From: Roseburia sp. AM59-24XD | Lineage (GTDB): Bacteria > Bacillota > Clostridia > Lachnospirales > Lachnospiraceae | Length of the DNA: 64,000 bases | NCBI RefSeq assembly: GCF_003478445.1 | Contig: NZ_QUET01000022.1 | Location: 1 to 64,000, forward strand | Direction of reading: 5' to 3' | Shown: positions 32,290-41,634 of the stretch, piece by piece | How positions within the stretch are numbered: position 1 is the stretch's first letter | How the letters are laid out: each line of letters begins with the position of its first letter | Position numbers and translations under genes: made by a program | The notes under the pieces: generated by a model | The model's input: only the letters and a program-made list of their open reading frames with translations | Databases searched by the model: none | Told to the model about the DNA's origin: nothing

Positions 32290-33303
32290 ATGGCATTAAC
32301 TCTAGAATATTTTTATCATCACACCCAGTCAAAGTATCAGCTCTGTCTGCTGACGCCGACCGCGAATCTGGACCGTCTGATCTCCTGGGTGCATCTCGTG
32401 GAGGACCGCAGCAACTGCAGCTTCCTGCGCGGCAATGAGCTGATCATCACGACCGGTATGGAGACCGCCAAGCCCGGCGAGCTTCTCCCTTTCGTGCAGC
32501 AGCTTGCCGATCAGCACGCCTGTGGGCTTGTCCTGAATATGGGACCGTATATCAGCTCTGTCCCGCAGGAGGTCAATGACTGGTGTCTTGCGCACCGTTT
32601 CCCGCTGTTTGCAATGCCATGGGAGGTTCATATTGCGGATATCATGCAGGACTACTGCAACGAGATCATCTCGGAGAAGCGGACGCAGGATCTGCGCACG
32701 GAGGCGCTGGAGCATGCCCTGCATATGAATATTTCCGAAAAGGACATTCCCGTGCTGGAGGGCTTCCGCGGCTGCTTTCTGCTGGTGAGCGATCAGGAGC
32801 TTTCCTTCCCGTGGTACGCCCATGTGCGGATGGGAGAACTGTTTTATTATGCTTCTGTCACACTTCCGTCCGTTCCGAAGGAGGCGCACTGCGGGGTGAG
32901 TGAACCTGTTTCTTCGCCGTATTCCCTGCCGGTGCAGGCAAAGCATGCCGGACGTGCGCTGACGGTCAGCCGGATCCGTAGCGAATCCCTGACGCATTTT
33001 CGCAATATCGGTCTTTACAATACGGTACTTGCCATCGATGATCCGGAGGTGTTTGCGCAGGCAGAGAAGCTTCTGTCACCGCTGACGGATCCCACGCTAC
33101 GCCAGACACTTCGAAGCTGGCTTGAGCATGACGGCAGCATCCAGGCGGTGGCACAGGAGCTGTTCATGCACCGCAATACCGTGAATTTCCGGATCAAACG
33201 GCTGCGCCGGATCTTTGCGCTGGACACGGCTCTCCAGAAAACAGAGCTTTTACTGGCGTTTTACATGGAGGATGTGCGCCGTATTATGGCTTCGGACGAA
33301 TAG
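32290..33303 (+). CDS. PucR-family transcriptional regulator (GABA locus)
   Basis: The 337-residue protein has an N-terminal PucR ligand-sensing domain (RLISWVHLVEDRSNCSFLRGNELIITTGM; NDWCLAHRFPLFAMPWEV) and a C-terminal HTH_30 domain (LEHDGSIQAVAQELFMHRNTVNFRIKRLRRIF). It is transcribed away from gabT, and a PucR-type palindrome lies between them. GGGGGAAG precedes the ATG at 32290; an earlier start at 32158 would overlap the palindrome and lacks a site. It likely activates gabT-4hbD in response to GABA or a related amine. Confidence 0.85.
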   Translation: MALTLEYFYHHTQSKYQLCLLTPTANLDRLISWVHLVEDRSNCSFLRGNELIITTGMETAKPGELLPFVQQLADQHACGLVLNMGPYISSVPQEVNDWCLAHRFPLFAMPWEVHIADIMQDYCNEIISEKRTQDLRTEALEHALHMNISEKDIPVLEGFRGCFLLVSDQELSFPWYAHVRMGELFYYASVTLPSVPKEAHCGVSEPVSSPYSLPVQAKHAGRALTVSRIRSESLTHFRNIGLYNTVLAIDDPEVFAQAEKLLSPLTDPTLRQTLRSWLEHDGSIQAVAQELFMHRNTVNFRIKRLRRIFALDTALQKTELLLAFYMEDVRRIMASDE

Positions 33304-34717
33304 CCTCGAATGCCCCGTACAGATCAAGCGTGCCATACCCCCACTCTTCGTTTGGGAAGCGGCGTCCGTCCCGGTTTGCTCCGCGGATCAGGTATTTCTG
33401 TACGCCGACCGTGTCCATGTTGATGTCGTTGCCCTTGACGATCCCCCACTCCACCAGAAGAATGGCAGCCCCCGCTGTCACAGCCGCCGCAGCACTGGAA
33501 CCGCTGCGGCTCACATAGCGCACCGGTCTGTCGGGCTCCGCCGCCACATTGCCGGGCTCCGGTGCCGGACCGTAGATATTGATGCCGGGTGCCGCAATGT
33601 CCGGTGCAATCTCCCCTCGCACATTAAAGCCCCTGCTTGCCTGCGCAGCCACACTCCGGTTCGCACCATCGTAGTAGGAAACGGTGATGATCTGCAAATT
33701 GTTAGACGGATCGCACAAGGTCGTATTGGGATCCGGGCGCAGAAAATAAGTCCCGTTATTAATAAATTCACGGATCGGCAGCCACATGTCAAACTGCGCC
33801 GGAATGTCCGTCTCATTGTACACACGGAACCGCCAGATCCCCTCCTCGGGACCAAAGAAGCGGAGACGGATGCATTCATCCCCACTCTCAAAGGAAACCA
33901 GCAGATAATCAATATAGACAACGGTCTTTTCCAACAGAAAACGGATCATCTGCCGTTCGCCGACACGGGCATAGATTCTGCCACTGAACTCCCCGCCGGG
34001 CGAGATCAAAGCCACGGAGCAAAGTCCGGGCGCCTTGCACCAAAGCTCTGTTGTGAAGTCGGTCTCAGCAGGATCGACCCGAAGCTCCACCTCCGTCTCT
34101 CCCCGGGCGGCAAGCTGCTCCTGATGATAGTGGTGTGATTCGTTTCCCTCATTGCCGCCTGCTGCCACGACAACAAAGCCCCTCAGATCGCCATAGGACT
34201 GCGCAATATGACCGAGTGCCCCTCCCCGGTAATGGCTTCCGAGACTTGTTCCCATGCCGATACACACGACCATCGGCTTTCTGCGCCGATAGGCGATCCT
34301 TGCCAGATAGCGGATCCCCAGCATAATATCATTTTCCATAAAGCACGGCACATCCGGGTCGATCCCGTAATAATCACGGATGTTTCTTTTGGCAGCTTTG
34401 CATTTCACAACGACAAGCTCCGCCAACGGAGCGATTCCCGAAAATTCCTGTGCCGCATCTTCGTTGCCGCATGCCACGCCCGCCATAAAGGTTCCATGTC
34501 CCTCGGTATCTCTGCTCGGTACGATATCGTAAGGATTTGCCGACTGCAGCGCGCGGTTGATGGCTTCTCTTCCGTATTCCGTGCCATAGGAAAGCTCCTC
34601 CGGCAGTCCGCCCTCCTGTCCCGAATTCGGGACATACGGAATGCTCTGATCCCAAATGGAATAGATCCTTGTCGTTCCATCAGCATTCAAAAAAGAGGGG
34701 ATCGTGTAATCAATCCC
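33284..34717 (-). pseudogene. Subtilisin-like protease, C-terminal part of a split Csp-type gene
   Basis: This fragment holds the peptidase S8 core except its first catalytic residue. It begins (G)IDYTIPSFLNADGTTRI, continues with the catalytic His in DTEGHGTFMAGVAC, and ends with the Ser region YVSRSGSSAAAAVTAG. The missing N-terminus with Asp-Thr-Gly is encoded at 39760-40086. The two parts join without loss of a residue. No ribosome-binding site precedes the first usable codon (TTG, 34690), and a hairpin with a T-run lies just before it, so expression as it stands is unlikely. It overlaps the pucR end by 20 bp. Confidence 0.88.
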
Positions 34718-34720
34718 CTC
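34694..34720 (-). terminator. Hairpin with T-run at the insertion junction
   Basis: On the minus strand GAGGGGAT (34720-34713) pairs with ATCCCCTC (34702-34695), with a 10-nt loop, followed by TTTTTT. Part comes from the original subtilase gene. It could terminate the transglutaminase operon. Confidence 0.6.
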
Positions 34721-34816
34721 TGGTGTGCGATAAAATTTTATTTATATAATTGCTTCGCAATAGTGCAATCCATCATTTAGTGGTAAATATCTTTTCGTAT
34801 GTCCATACACTATTTA

Positions 34817-37581
34817 TCACTTCCATGCACGAAGTCCGGCGTAGAATTTCCGCCCGGTTCCTGCCGATGCAAGTGCTGCCCGCTTCACGCCCCTGACAAA
34901 GCGGACACAGTCTCTGATCTCTTCCTTTGAACCGCACTCTCTGTCAAACCGCGCTCTCTCAAGCTGACGGAAATACCTCCCTGTCATGCCGCTCTCCACG
35001 CCCTTCGGATCAAGCCCGCTAAGAAGCGTAAGATATTCCTGATCGGTCATGTGCTCCGGCTTGCCAAAGCCACAGCAGCGAAGCACCTGCTCGAGCTGAT
35101 GGTTCAACTCCAGAAGATATGCACCGCCTCCATGACATTTTCGCAGACGGTATCTTCTGCGCAGACGCTGGCTGTACCAGATCAGCCACAGAAGCAGTAA
35201 GACTGCCACCGTTCCTGTCACGGCAAGCAGGATTTTCTTCTGCTTCGGAGAAAGTGCTTTCCTGCCTGCATCGCTTCCGGCGGATGTACCGGAACTGCTT
35301 CCGTCTGAGGATGCGTCCATCTGATCGCTGCTTCCGCCATTCTGTCCGTCGGCATGCTCAGTCGCAGCCGGTTCCTCGGTGATCTCAGGTTCTTCCGTTT
35401 CAGAAGGATCCTGCGCTGCCTTTTCGCTGCTCTGCGGATCATTCTCAAGGAGGTGTCATCGCCGTAATCCGGCTCCTCGGTCGGTGCGGTCTGGGTAAAT
35501 CCGGATCCGTTGTTGTTGATCTGACCGGTCGCATCCTGTGCGCTTGGTGTCATATCCGCCACGGTCCAGCCGCTGCTCAGACTGTAGACCTCCGTCCACG
35601 CATGCGCTTCCTGATCCAGCACCTTCGCCGTGTAGGTTCCATCCCCGTTGTCGACAAAGTCTGATGCCGGTACACGGTAACCGGACACATAGCGGGATGG
35701 GATTCCCATCGCACGAAACAGCACAGCTCCTGCTGTCGCATAATGCTCACAGTAACCAAGCTTCTGCACGAAAAGGAAATTCTCCACATAATCGGTACCG
35801 ACTTCCTTTGCCTTCAGCGTCTGACTGTACTTTGTATTTTCATTCAGATAGATTCGCAGCGATTTGATCGTCTGATCCGGAGATACGAAAATGGTTCTTC
35901 CGCTTCCGGTGGTCTTCGTGATCGGAACATAATTGACCAGAAGATCCTTTGCAAGCTGCTTCGTCTGTGTCAGACCACCCGGCAGCCACAGATCCTCACT
36001 TAACACATACTGGAAATACCTGCCGAGATTCGGATCCGATACGGCAACATAGTACTTTCCGTCCTCTAACGACGGCATATCTTCCCCATCCGTGATCTGC
36101 TGCTTATTCGAGCCGAAATTGTCATCGTCTGTCTCATATATCGTAACGGATTCCTGATTTCCCAATCGTTCCCCGGCATAATACGGAACGCATTCCTTCT
36201 GCAGAAGTCCCGCCGAGCTTGCCTGAAAACGAAGACCCATTCTTGTTTTCTGGGTAAGCACCTCGTATTCGCTGACGTCATCGCTGCGCCGGAAGCCCTT
36301 GTCGTAATCAAGCATCAGCGTTCCCATGGAGCTTTCATCCAGCTTGGAGAAATATGGAAAGTACGCAAACGTTGTCGGGTTGCCCTTCTCATATTTGATC
36401 TTCATATGCATGGCGTTCTTTTGCCCCATCGAATCCGGATCTGCCAGATATTCCTGATACGATACTGATCGGTTGTCCGAAGCAAGCTTTCTTGCCTGAT
36501 ATACGTTATAATCCTGCGTCAGAAGCTGATAGCAGGTCTCGGTTCCAAACAGACCGGATATTTTCTTTTTCTTGGAATTGCTCCATCTGCCGTTTTCGTA
36601 TCTTGTGCCGATAAAACCGCGCAGATAAATATCTTCCGTCGGTTTCTTGTCTACGGTCAGCGTAAGCACGGTCTCCCCGGTAAATTTCGGGGAAGTATTG
36701 GTAAGCACACCCGGCTGCTCAATGCCAAGAAGTGCCTGAATCTTCTGCACGGTCCGCACCCCAAAGTTCACAATCTGCTTTTCCATGGTGTGCTGCGTCT
36801 TAAGGAGCTTCTCCTCTCCCTGCAACGCCTGATCCTTCGTTGCTACCGACAGTCTGGCTCCTGCTCCAAACAGCACCAGAATACATACTAACATGATCGG
36901 ATAGAATAAACGGTGACGCACAATGGAAACACTGATCTGGCGGAAATGTCTGGAACCGCCTACATGAAATTCATCGTAGCACATCTGTGTTCCCAGAATA
37001 CCGGCGATCAGAAGGATCATTGCCGGTATGGTCGGCGCCTTTCCCCAGAGAAGACCACAGGCTACAAGAAGTGCCGCAGGCAGTGTCCCCCAGAACATGC
37101 CGTGACGGTGTGCATACACCCGTGACATAAACAGTCCGGCAAGAAGCTCCAGATCCAGAACGATCCATGTTCCAACGGCTCCGTGATACCGGTCCGCATA
37201 CGGCTGAAATGCACCGGATACACCGTAATTATACTGTCTCTGACGATGCGCGACCGCATCCGTCAGTGTCGTCATATCTGCTTTGATGTGTCCCAGATAT
37301 CGGACTGTCAAAATCCCCCATATTATTAGAGTAAAAAGCAGAAACAGATCCGCCACCGGATACTTCACAAACGGAATCTTATACCGGCTCTTTACCTTAT
37401 GCTCCAGACGCCGGAGCGGTGCCGCTGCAAGCACGGTAAACCAGATCGACGCCACCGCAAGTGCAATGGCAAATTTATATAAGCTTCCTGCTTTCAGAAA
37501 GATGGAATACACACACAGATGCATTCCGAAAAGCTGCATGAAAAGACAGATTCCCTGCATAACGAACGGCTTTCTTTTCAT
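34817..37581 (-). pseudogene. Transglutaminase-like membrane protein (TgpA type), frameshifted
   Basis: The long frame from 37581 has five or six N-terminal membrane spans and a transglutaminase core with YCEHYATAGAVLFRAMGIPSRYVSGYRV, HAWTEVYS and VADMTPS, giving the Cys-His-Asp triad. At about 35447 one base is missing: the frame would continue ENDPQSSEKAAQDP into the frame at 34817-35320, which has a membrane span (ILLAVTGTVAVLLLLWLIWY) and a C-terminal DUF4129-like domain. As written, the product ends in unrelated basic sequence (LRMIRRAAKRQRR). It is last in the moxR-DUF58 operon. The frameshift may be a sequencing error. Confidence 0.8.
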
Positions 37582-37620
37582 GATATTCCCCCTTTATTTA
37601 CAAGCGGCCTGTCCCCTCCG

Positions 37621-38753
37621 CTAAACAACTAATTTCTTCGCGCCAAGCTGCCTCTCGATATCGGAAACATCCCCGCTGTATCTTGCCTGTGTCTCGCCAT
37701 TCAGCTTGAGCACCAGCTCTGTGTCAAGCTCCAATGTCGTAATACCCGGCATCTCATGATATTTCTGCCGATAAAGTTCAGTAAGCTCCTTCCGGCTGTG
37801 ATACACCGGAAGCTGCCCCAGACGAAACAGCATTTCGTATATATTTTCCTCTTTCTCGATCCGGTATCTGCAGATATCATTTCTCTGACTGTCAAACCAG
37901 ATGACATGATGACGGCATCCTTCTAACACCAGCGAATGGCTGATCGAAGCGATGATCTGCAGATAACTGTCGCGCTTTGTCTCATGCTTTCTGCCATGAT
38001 GCCCCGCCGGCTGATACAGATCCAGATAGAAATCGACCGGACAGCCCAGCGGCAGTGACTGCTCGCGAACCATCATTTCGTCCGTCTTGGCTGTCAGCTT
38101 CCAGTGAATGCTGCGAAGCTTGTCTCCCGGCTGATAATCACGGATCTTGAACACCTCGGACGGATCATCTCCGCCGCGTTCTTTGGAATAATCCTCGCTC
38201 TCCCCCGCAAAATCACGGCTCTGGCGGCTGACCATCACCGGAACCTCGCAGATTCTCGGCAAAACGAGCATCGTCTCCGGCTTCAGTGCCTTCCAGTACT
38301 TCGCAGAAAGCGGCACTGCGACAAGTCCGAGAAAATCATAGCACCAGACCTTCCCGATCTCCATATGGATATTACCGACGCAGCGGGCATGATATTCTGT
38401 CTTGATGACGGCTTCCTTTTTGCTGCCCGTCAGATGTGAATAGAACCAGGTTTTCTCTGTTTTCTGTCCCATCGGCAGCGTTCCTTTCACCTGCACCGCA
38501 ATCCTTCCTCCGATTGGAAAGCTTCCGTTGCGCACCCGCAGTAATACCGGCACCTTCTGTCCCTGCTCTACCACGGGAATCGGCAGCTCCATTGTAAGTC
38601 TCAGACTGCGCATTGCCGGCAGGAGAGTAAGCATCAGAAAGAACGGCAGGGCAAGCTCCACATAAAACAGCATCAGAAAACTGGTGCTCCATAAAGCACC
38701 GCTGTATAAAATGTCAACGCGATCACGATCAAATATGTGATGAGTCTTTTCAT
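37621..38753 (-). pseudogene. DUF58 protein, frameshifted near the N-terminus
   Basis: The frame 37621-38673 carries the DUF58 domain with KERGGDDPSEVFKIRDYQPGD and IHWKLTAKTDEMMVRE. In these operons DUF58 proteins have two N-terminal membrane helices; here the first, MKRLITYLIVIALTFYTAVLYG, begins at 38753 with GGAGAGG upstream, but is in another frame. Loss of one A at about 38688 explains this. The likely intact product has about 378 residues. It acts with the MoxR ATPase and the transglutaminase in an envelope-related module. Restored or not, I treat it as one gene. Confidence 0.75.
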
Positions 38754-38773
38754 GGAATCACACGCCTCTCCGA

Positions 38774-39763
38774 TTATTTTCTGACCTTCGGTTTCTGAAC
38801 GCTGGAAAGAATCTGCTCCAGCACGGTATCTGTGGATACATGTCCAACACGTGCCTTGGAATTTAATACGAGACGATGTGCCACCACAGCACTAAATACT
38901 TCGGTGACATCGTTTGGCACAACAAAGTCACGGTCTGACAGGAATGCAGCCGCCTTTGCCATCTTTGCAAGTGCGATGGTTCCACGCGGACTCATACCAA
39001 GCTCCACAAGCGAATGCTCTCTGGTGGCTCTTGCAAGATCTACAATATAAGAATAGATCTCATCGTGCAGATAAATATTCTCAACCTCTGCCCGGATCAG
39101 GATAAGCTCCTGTGCCGGAATAACTCCCTGTACATCGTCAAGCTGTATGCCGTTGCTTCTTCCCTTTGCGATCGCAATCTCGTTCTCGGCATCCGGATAT
39201 CCCATGGTCATACAGATCATGAAACGGTCAAGCTGTGACTCCGGCAGAAGCTGGGTTCCGACGCTTCCGACCGGATTCTCCGTCGCAATTACCACAAACG
39301 GCTCCGGAACACGTCTTGTCACACCGTCCACTGTGACATTGCCTTCCTCCATAACCTCAAGCAGTGCCGACTGTGTTTTCGGCGAGGTGCGGTTGATCTC
39401 ATCTGCCAGAAACAGGTTACACATGATCGCACCCGGCTGATACACAAAAGCTCCCTGTGCCTTTTCGTACATGGAAAATCCGAGGATGTCCGCCGGGAGT
39501 ACATCCGGCGTGAACTGCATACGGTGACTGTCCATCTCCATAGCTCCCGCAAATGCCATCGCAAGTGTTGTTTTACCGACACCCGGTATATCGTCGATCA
39601 GGATATGACCGCCTGCAAGGATCGCCGCCATCGCGAGACGGACACACTCATCCTTACCGATCACTACCTTTTTGACCTCGTTCATTACTGCACATGCTTC
39701 CTGATAATATCTTTCATTCATTTTGTTTAACACCAAACCTTTCCCCATTGCTCTGTTTATCAA
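38774..39763 (-). CDS. MoxR-family AAA+ ATPase
   Basis: The protein has up to 329 residues and is a MoxR ATPase, a chaperone-like AAA+ protein that usually works with DUF58/VWA proteins. Walker A is GVGKTTLA, Walker B is LFLADEINR, sensor and arginine-finger blocks include TENPVGSVGTQLLPESQLDRF. The start is uncertain: TTG at 39763 overlaps the stop of the split subtilase fragment; an ATG at 39721 gives the family-like start MNERYYQEA but has no clear ribosome-binding site. No promoter is visible inside the inserted segment before it. Confidence 0.85.
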   Translation of the reverse strand: MINRAMGKGLVLNKMNERYYQEACAVMNEVKKVVIGKDECVRLAMAAILAGGHILIDDIPGVGKTTLAMAFAGAMEMDSHRMQFTPDVLPADILGFSMYEKAQGAFVYQPGAIMCNLFLADEINRTSPKTQSALLEVMEEGNVTVDGVTRRVPEPFVVIATENPVGSVGTQLLPESQLDRFMICMTMGYPDAENEIAIAKGRSNGIQLDDVQGVIPAQELILIRAEVENIYLHDEIYSYIVDLARATREHSLVELGMSPRGTIALAKMAKAAAFLSDRDFVVPNDVTEVFSAVVAHRLVLNSKARVGHVSTDTVLEQILSSVQKPKVRK

Positions 39764-40086
39764 ACTCCATCCCCCGTATCAACAATCCCGAACATTACAC
39801 CCTGTCCGAAAAGCTCTAACTGCGACTGTCTCCTGACTCTCGCCGCCCCTGTCTCCTCTAACGTCTGTGTTGAACTCAGAAGACCAAAGCATCGTGGTAT
39901 CACAAGCTCTGCATTTCTGCGGCTCTCATCGACCGCACTGCCCTCCAGATAAACAACGGCAAACCGGAAATCTGCCAGCTGGTAACAGTCCGTCTGATAC
40001 TGCTCCGACACCAGCTCCGACCAGCTGCCGTACTCCACGATATAATCTTCATATTCTTCGGAATATATTTTGTCCTGACAATCCAC
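39760..40086 (-). pseudogene. Subtilisin-like protease, N-terminal part of the split gene
   Basis: The 108-codon frame has the Csp-type prodomain (FAVVYLEGSAVDESRRN, PRCFGLLSSTQTLEETG, LELFGQGVMFGIVDTG) and stops a few codons after the catalytic Asp-Thr-Gly (DTGDGV). In intact family members DTG is followed directly by IDY, which is found at 34714 at the start of the C-terminal part. Together the two pieces give an ordinary-length protease of about 580 residues. Alone it is only a prodomain with one triad residue. Confidence 0.87.
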
Positions 40087-40208: not shown

Positions 40209-41634
40209 TTAATCGTTGCGCTGTGTCAGAAGCGTTGCCTCACCGCTTTCCCTCATCTCAATCTTCGGCGAACCGTGATTTTCGATGTAGTCCTTTGTGA
40301 TCGTTACACGACCGATCATATCATCCTTCGGGATCTCATACATAATATCCAGCATGAAATCCTCGATGATCGCACGCAACGCTCTTGCACCTGTCTTTTT
40401 CTCGGCTGCCTTCACGGCAACTGCCTGAATGGCATCCGCATCAAACTGCAGATCGACCTCATCGAGCAGCAAAAGCTTCTGATACTGCTTTAAGATCGCA
40501 TTCTTCGGCTCTGTCATAACGCGGGCGAGCATCTCCTCTGTCATTGCCTGCAGTGAAAAGATAACCGGCAGACGTCCGAGAAACTCCGGAATCATACCAA
40601 ACTCCCGCAGATCCTCACGGTGACCTTGGATAAAATATTCTCATCCTTATCATAGGCATCGGAAAGCTCCGCCTGAAAGCCAATGGATGCCTGACTGGTA
40701 AGACGCTTCTTGATGATCTTGTCCAGCTCCGGAAATGCTCCGCCACAGATAAATAAGATATTTCTTGTATCGATCGTTGTCATCGGCACCATGGCGTTTT
40801 TATTCGTGGCACCAACCGGTACCTCAACCTCGCTGCCCTCCAGAAGCTTTAACATGCCCTGCTGTACGGACTCGCCGCTGACATCACGGCTGTTGGTATT
40901 GCGCTTCTTGGCGATCTTATCAATCTCATCGATAAAGATAATGCCGTGCTCTGCTTTCTCGACATCATTGTCCGCAGCGGCAAGCAGCTTGGAAAGCACG
41001 CTCTCGACATCGTCACCGATGTAGCCTGCCTCTGTAAGACTTGTGGCATCCGTGATCGCAAGCGGTACCTGCAGGATCTTCGCCAGCGTCTTGACCAGAT
41101 AGGTCTTACCACAGCCGGTCGGACCCACCATGAGAATGTTGGATTTCTCAATCTCGATCTCATCCATCGTGTCCGTCAGAACACGCTTGTAATGATTGTA
41201 CACCGCCACGGACATTACCTTTTTGGCATAGTCCTGACCGATGACATATTCATCCAGATGCTTCTTAATGACATGTGGTGCCGGAAGGTGGTGGATATCA
41301 ACGATACCCTTCGTTTCTTCCGGCTTCTCTGTCTTCTCCTCCGCCTTCGGCTCTTCATGCTTTTTCTTTTTGAGTTTCTGATTGTTCGGAATCTCCTCGA
41401 ACATGTTCTGATTGCCGTTAAACATGTCCATATACGGCGCATGCCGCTCATCATTCCCGGAAAGCCGCTCATGCTTCCCATGGAATCAAAGGTCTTCTGC
41501 ATGCAGTCCGGGCAAATGCAGATATTGTTCGGAATATGGATCATCTTTCCTGCCTTGCTCTCGGGACGTCTGCACAGATAGCAGATTTCCTCGTAATCGG
41601 AGTTGTCTGTCGTGGTATTGTTATCTTCTGCCAT
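40209..41634 (-). pseudogene. clpX: ClpX ATPase, disrupted by two single-base frameshifts
   Basis: ClpX is the AAA+ unfoldase of the ClpXP protease. Three frames together spell a complete ClpX: the zinc-binding domain (EEICYLCRRPESKAGKM, NNICICPDCMQ) at 41634-41440; the AAA core ([13 protein letters not shown], Walker A GPTGCGKT, Walker [22 protein letters not shown] block) to about 40615; and the C-terminal domain (IPEFLGRLPVIF...) to 40209. The breaks at about 41439 (CC to C) and 40615 (GG to G) are single-base losses. As clpX is normally conserved, sequencing error is as likely as real damage. Confidence 0.85.

Follow-up and report, generated by a model that had tools for sequence, protein, structure and literature searches.

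In Bacillus subtilis and C. difficile, the skin element interrupts sigK, and the gene is rebuilt by serine-recombinase excision in sporulating cells (PMC5025042). The gin element in gerE of Bacillus cereus ATCC10987 is a non-phage block in a sporulation-related gene that depends on a serine recombinase for precise rejoining and has a short common core within an imperfect inverted repeat (PMC5595907). SPbeta in spsM and yin in yabG are prophage or prophage-like DNA in spore genes (PMC4191935, PMC10747680), and the heterocyst interruption elements, for example fdxN/XisF, undergo programmed excision in a terminal cell (PMC4874684). We analysed a 64,000-nucleotide stretch of Roseburia sp. AM59-24XD (contig NZ_QUET01000022.1, positions 1 to 64,000; hereafter the window), in which a gene that belongs, judged from its sequence, to the csp (germination protease/pseudoprotease) family is split by a 5-kb block resembling the systems above in the features named, as observed or as proposed below. 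We consider it probable that the block is a gene-intervening element that functions like skin or gin and is excised by an enzyme acting in trans.

A csp gene split after Asp-Thr-Gly

On the minus strand of the window, which carries all features given here, the order is clpX, csp N-piece, moxR, DUF58, transglutaminase and csp C-piece. As the original prediction had stated, the csp gene adjoining clpX is cut after its catalytic Asp-Thr-Gly; the intervening length is 5,057 bp (34715-39771). The N-piece (39763..40086), a frame of 108 codons ending GIVDTGDGV*, comprises the pro-region and the first strand with the catalytic Asp (GIVDTG), followed by three element-coded residues and a stop at 39760-39762. 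The C-piece (33284..34714) runs from IDYTIPSFL to the gene end; its frame reads TPEGIDYTIPSFL, with the boundary TPEG/IDYTIPSFL, and continues to the subtilase end, and no ATG, GTG or TTG lies between the upstream stop and IDYT. By motif, the catalytic Asp lies in the N-piece, and the His and Ser regions lie in the C-piece. Pfam names Peptidase_S8 on the C-piece and no domain on the N-piece. An intact homologue of the C-piece (L116) matches the CspBA model at 1e-93 and the CspC model at 8e-85, both below the model cut-offs.

Removal of 34715-39771, with the crossover within GGG, yields the in-frame product DTGIDYTIPSFL. The original prediction had set the insert at 34719-39774 (5,056 bp), and removal of that segment gives DTGD*, a frameshift and stop, so the boundaries given here replace it. 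Both copies of the direct repeat GGGGAT that it reported (39774-39769 and 34718-34713) are present, and 10 of 13 positions match between its terminal inverted repeats, GGAGTTTGATAAA and GGTGTGCGATAAA. GGGGAT is not a general feature: the ends in G001 and G002 share only GGGG, and those in G251 only GGG.

The split is conserved, and a rejoined protein is known

Three loci came up when species genomes were scanned with the C-piece. One is distant; the other two, in the metagenome-assembled Lachnospiraceae genomes RUG13384 (83% identical) and SUG799 (75%), carry clpX, an N-piece ending DTGAGVR*, moxR, DUF58, transglutaminase and the C-piece, and the same moxR-type split occurs in G004 (57-59% identity) and G251 (52%). 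The comparison loci used throughout are the moxR-type splits of G001, G002, G004 and G251 and the locus of G013, which has another insert. The split codon is identical in the window and in the four moxR-type genomes; this rules out an assembly chimera, and with it the assembly join that the original prediction had named as a refuting outcome.

With regard to the ancestral state, a profile of the csp N terminus matched 40 of 50 relatives. Among the best copies, those of G001, G002, G004 and G013 are split, and the remaining 36 each occupy one frame of at least 510 aa (the G005 copy is cut by a contig end; G031 and G041 have second copies in shorter frames). When 13 intact-copy loci were laid out, clpX was adjacent or one gene off in 10 (L115, L117, L119-L124, L126 and L127) and not near csp in three (L116, L118 and L125); none of the 13 has a moxR match. 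Among 397 genomes drawn from the family, 169 gave csp matches, with short frames in G001, G002, G013, G251 and G190 among the matches listed. In G190 (L199:3000-3353), a csp N-piece of 117 aa gives way to unrelated sequence that continues to the contig end; this may be a third type of insert.

The window C-piece was also searched against 5.8 billion proteins; 7,996 candidates were scored, 1,264 lay at E <= 1e-60, and the best 120 of these were used. The split state is represented by P0065 (466 aa, 68 member sequences) and P0067 (468 aa, 270 member sequences). An intact record, P0066 (581 aa, one member sequence, from a 106,702-bp contig), is 99% identical to the window C-piece; its N-terminal part is identical to the window N-piece, and its junction, GVMFGIVDTGIDYTIPSFL, equals the product predicted by removing 34715-39771. 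A tree of the C-terminal part was built from 92 of the 120 matches (58 intact and 34 split, with 28 dropped as truncated or unclear). The clade of the window holds 14 split members and one intact member, which is P0066. Twelve changes of state occur across the tree, at least 11 of them on well-supported branches, a frequency that could reflect either snapshots of the two states or recurrent gains and losses. Other close intact/split csp pairs (85-91% identical) are P0104/P0093, P0102/P0113 and P0178/P0167; two of their split members have TGEG instead of TPEG and P0167 has TPAG, a hint of more than one element family.

Both csp pieces are under purifying selection. Over the six pairs among the window, G001, G002 and G004, dN/dS was 0.05-0.27 for the N-piece and 0.06-0.23 for the C-piece where dS was finite. 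No in-frame ATG, GTG or TTG lies between the upstream stop and the C-terminal part in five of six loci (the window, G002, G004, G251 and G013).

The element ends form inverted arms around a common core

The element is bounded by two copies of the crossover core GGG, the left at 39772..39774 and the right at 34715..34717. Next to them lie the left arm (39757..39771) and the right arm TTATCGCACACCAGAG (34718..34733), an imperfect inverted repeat of the left. After the common GGG, the left arms read GATGGAGTTTGATAA in the window, GCTGGAGTGAGATAA in G001, GCTGGAGTTAGATAA in G002, GATGGTGTGCGATAT in G004 and TCTGGTGTTTGTTAT in G251; the reverse complements of the right arms read, in the same order, CTCTGGTGTGCGATAA, CTCTGGAGTTCGAAAA, CTCTGGTGTGTGATAT, CTCTGGCGTGCGAAAT and CGCTGCTGTTAGATAC. 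The arms match at 9 of 14 positions in the window and at 10 of 14 in each of the other four, with the best offset the same single base in all five. Among 200,000 random place pairs from the same sequence, this level is reached by 2,634 in the window, 473 in G001, 427 in G002, 448 in G004 and 976 in G251; because the five loci are homologous, these five figures are not independent. Counted by hand, the one-base offset centres the symmetry on GG inside the core, and the attP sites of serine recombinases likewise have their symmetry centre on GG (PMC5595907). In the best explanation, a large serine recombinase would use the two ends as attL/attR-like sites, their inverted arms flanking a central GG. 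The pattern DTG-xGV is retained in 38 of 60 N-piece matches; the residues after DTG are absent from the joined protein, so their retention points to selection at the DNA level.

G013 supplies a second case, with an unrelated insert. Its clpX-linked csp gene is cut three codons further on, after VVDSGID, by a 1,577-bp insert holding two response-regulator-like open reading frames (ORFs). The arms of this insert share TTGAGTGTAACA (12 bp perfect, 12/14 overall) around a common TA, which 6 of 200,000 random pairs equal, and joining is in frame, giving DSGIDYLNPLF. In silico, precise removal rebuilds an open csp frame in all six loci, and every joined frame reads D(T/S)GIDY.

A terminator-like hairpin (AGAGGGG...CCCCTCT plus a T run, 34694..34721) spans the right junction and, with its T run, partly codes for IDYTIPSF. 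It has 11 pairs and heads the list of terminator-like sites; joining shortens the stem and changes the folding energy from -18.5 to -13.2 kcal/mol. Excision as a terminator switch was considered and rejected: of the three loci folded, the window and G001 show a weakened stem, but G004 forms no hairpin of this kind. The GGGGAT...ATCCCC hairpin of the original prediction is real in the window and missing from G004. Split inteins or introns were also rejected, as no long extra coding or intron-like sequence was seen by eye at the junctions.

The block carries ordinary chromosomal genes

The element (34715..39771), whose 5,057 bp include one core copy, holds three genes in the same direction, as foreseen. 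Pfam identifies them as a moxR (AAA_3) ATPase (38774..39721), a DUF58 protein (37621..38753) and a transglutaminase-core membrane protein (Transglut_core, 34817..37581). The original prediction had also found no recombinase inside; by Pfam, neither a recombinase nor a transposase domain occurs among the ORFs of the window insert, and the insert-bearing contigs G001:C18, G002:C86, G004:C4, G251:C171 and G013:C19 have no PF00239 match. Counting one core copy, the inserts of the window, G001, G002, G004 and G251 measure 5,057, 5,097, 8,145, 8,362 and 4,707 bp. The cargo varies: G002 has additional leucine-rich-repeat-type and LytR-type genes before the C-piece, and G004 additional YfhO-like and glycosyltransferase-type genes (all named by eye). 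Operons of moxR, DUF58 and transglutaminase stand among other genes in G029, G013, G040 and G033, and G001 has a second one; the cargo is therefore of a type common on chromosomes. Scanning the region for the sigma-70 consensus found three promoter-like sites, where shuffled sequences averaged 5.5.

The window has frameshifts near 38674 in DUF58, near 35440 in transglutaminase and near 40592 in clpX (40209..41634), the conserved upstream neighbour. They are probably sequence errors, since the same genes are open in the relatives L001 and L002.

A short serine recombinase is the candidate enzyme

As the block carries no recombinase, its enzyme must act in trans. The best candidate would be P0001 of G001, a short stand-alone serine recombinase of 389 aa with the domains PF00239 (Resolvase) and PF07508 (Recombinase) and the sole PF07508 match in that genome. 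Its gene lies one gene away from that of a large protein read as a penicillin-binding protein, and G002 and G004 have 389-aa relatives (47 and 42-43% identity) likewise one gene from a penicillin-binding-protein-like gene. In a search of 145 relatives, E < 1e-80 was reached only in G001 (the query's own), G002 and G004, which are the moxR-type split genomes known among those 145; the next match was at 1.4e-43. Against the 397 genomes, with at most four candidates scored per genome, E < 1e-200 was reached only in G001 and G002, followed by G251 at 5.6e-70 in a 550-aa frame.

An alignment of the P0001 family (52 rows) shows R20, S22, R94, C308, C311 and C327 to be invariant; these are catalytic and zinc-ribbon residues. 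After the last zinc-ribbon Cys, 46 of the 52 rows have only 60-98 residues, compared with 163-284 in five long rows; a sixth long row, P0225, has 15 aa there, is misaligned or cut, and was left aside. A structure model of P0001 (mean pLDDT 83, pTM 0.50) has only short helices in the C-terminal part. Among PDB structures it matches serine integrases of about 535 aa best, with query-based TM-scores of 0.43-0.58 for the first five. The missing C-terminal segment is where the coiled-coil motif would be expected. In phiC31 integrase, changes near or in this motif allow attL x attR recombination without a recombination directionality factor (RDF) (PMC5025042), and on this basis we propose that the short recombinase may carry out RDF-free excision.

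XisF is the second-best NCBIfam model for P0001, at 75.7 bits against a cut-off of 375. P0255 of Clostridium sp. OM07-10AC (303 aa) matches at 67% over 47% of the query, with a diverging C-terminal part, perhaps owing to a frameshift. Phages as carriers were rejected: no N- or C-piece relatives were found among viral contigs, and phage recombinases reached 29-33% (best 8 of 368 records, all below 60%).

Sporulation and germination genes in the split genomes

Spo0A was found in five of five split genomes tested and SpoIVA in four of the five. The idea of a conserved sporulation promoter ahead of csp was dropped: the upstream alignment of the window, G001, G002 and G004 is too poor, and visual inspection shows a CATANNNTA-like box in G001 and G002 but in neither the window nor G004.

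A second gene is interrupted in relatives; we label it a SleC-like spore cortex gene. Its C-terminal part has SpoIID-like and peptidoglycan-binding domains. In G002 and G004 a block that contains two serine recombinases interrupts it near residue 170, and in G020, G028, G032 and G051 it is broken at residue 298-299; only G002, G004 and G020 showed both halves. The breaks (L110:1878-8294, L112:1282-7745 and L202:234-7487, also L201, L203 and L205) involve six relatives and two codons, and serine recombinase genes lie beside the broken gene in G002, G004, G020 and G028. Such elements may favour germination genes as targets. A different break is found in G036 (L204:5120-9401), where the SleC-like gene stops at residue 232 and a gene pair resembling IS21 (by eye) lies about 1.4 kb on.

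Proposed mechanism and alternatives

In the mechanism we favour, recombination between the GGG cores would remove the 5-kb block and restore a single open csp frame (DTG-IDYT), leaving the chromosomal junction GATACGGGGATTGATTAC and the circle junction CCAGAGGGGGATGGAG. The 389-aa recombinase, its C-terminal segment missing, may permit this without a directionality factor. Judging by skin, SPbeta/spsM and gin, the likely occasion would be sporulation and the likely place the terminal mother cell, where loss of the moxR operon would cost nothing. Skin-like excision was one of three readings in the original prediction, and it is the one that the split at one codon in five genomes, the symmetric ends and the same-species intact protein with the predicted junction support. 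A freely mobile passenger agrees poorly with an insert whose content varies while its ends stay put and with the occurrence of the same operons elsewhere. A broader proposal is possible but rather doubtful: a host-domesticated DNA elimination, in which a trans-acting chromosomal recombinase devoid of the directionality-control segment deletes the moxR operon and by the same step turns on a germination protease, giving a coupled off/on switch in dozens of species; a parallel system may act on the SleC-like gene, whose product belongs to the same germination pathway.

Several observations weigh against excision as we propose it. The excised state is known only as the protein P0066, with its one member on one contig, and this may come from a strain with permanent loss of the block or from an assembly mis-join. 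The arm symmetry of the window alone is weak (9/14, reached by 1.3% of random pairs), dS is high throughout and near saturation, with one C-piece pair saturated, and the C-piece of G001 is preceded by an in-frame GTG. G001 also yielded neither SpoIVA nor a SleC-like match, through gaps or loss. G251 is split, yet no orthologue-grade P0001 was found there (4 of 18 candidates scored, with a 458-aa resolvase-domain frame left aside), which speaks against a simple one-to-one link of recombinase and split. Because the three genomes with the recombinase are close kin, its co-occurrence with the split is confounded by descent.

The pieces might instead be relics of an old disruption, with intact copies representing lineages that lost or never had the insert. 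The cargo that varies among genomes and the repeated changes of state on the tree would suit such a history; we nevertheless think it unlikely, as both pieces remain open and under purifying selection, the arms are retained at both ends, and the only intact member of the window's clade shares 99% identity with split copies. Bet-hedging or reversible phase variation, with the block leaving and re-entering in growing cells to give a mixed population without sporulation control, would account for both states within one species, and a recombinase lacking the usual long C-terminal segment might work both ways. Such a system is rather improbable given that the split clusters, of 68 and 270 members, outnumber the single intact sequence, that the intact homologue matches germination-protein models and that the cited precedents are developmental.

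That the N- and C-polypeptides assemble into a working enzyme with no change in the DNA would agree with the conservation of both pieces. This is very unlikely, because the C-piece mostly lacks a start codon and in the window has a terminator-like hairpin over its start; moreover, P0066 is a joined protein, and the best copy of most matched relatives lies in one frame. The least credible alternative, to which we give almost no weight, is a transposon-like passenger moved by a transposase encoded elsewhere, with GGGGAT as its target duplication. The window does show a direct repeat and terminal inverted repeats, but removal in the GGGGAT register leaves a frameshift, the insert has no transposase domain, the repeat shrinks to GGGG or GGG in relatives, and at the csp loci examined the unit keeps its position while its content changes. 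A target-duplication transposon was rejected on these grounds, and excision in trans remains the explanation we prefer.

Comparison with known intervening elements

Like skin and gin, the csp element interrupts what its sequence suggests is a germination-type gene, has a core within inverted arms and rebuilds the frame when removed; unlike them, it has no recombinase gene inside, and this sets it apart from the members of that group. Among the titles and abstract beginnings returned by a literature search, none describes an interruption of csp or sleC or excision by an enzyme encoded outside the element, although most subscription papers lay outside this search, so that absence is unproven. 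If the proposal is true, a selfish insertion would have been tamed into a developmental switch, and assembled Lachnospiraceae genomes would hide working germination genes that look broken; a small recombinase is named as a candidate for excision without a directionality factor.

The gin element is 28.6 kb long and carries the recombinases girA-C and the factor GirX (PMC5595907), whereas the csp element has a cargo of host-type operon genes and another target gene. The skin element is prophage-like, with its recombinase, and in C. difficile also an RDF, inside and a sigma-factor gene as target (PMC5025042); SPbeta and yin consist of prophage or prophage-like DNA (PMC4191935, PMC10747680), in contrast to the host-type operon found here; and the heterocyst elements carry their recombinase within and interrupt cyanobacterial genes (PMC4874684). 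The cited rearrangements of sporulation genes are thus based on phages or mobile elements with an enzyme of their own, while the csp element consists of ends and ordinary host-type genes, an arrangement that persists across diverged species with its enzyme apparently encoded elsewhere.

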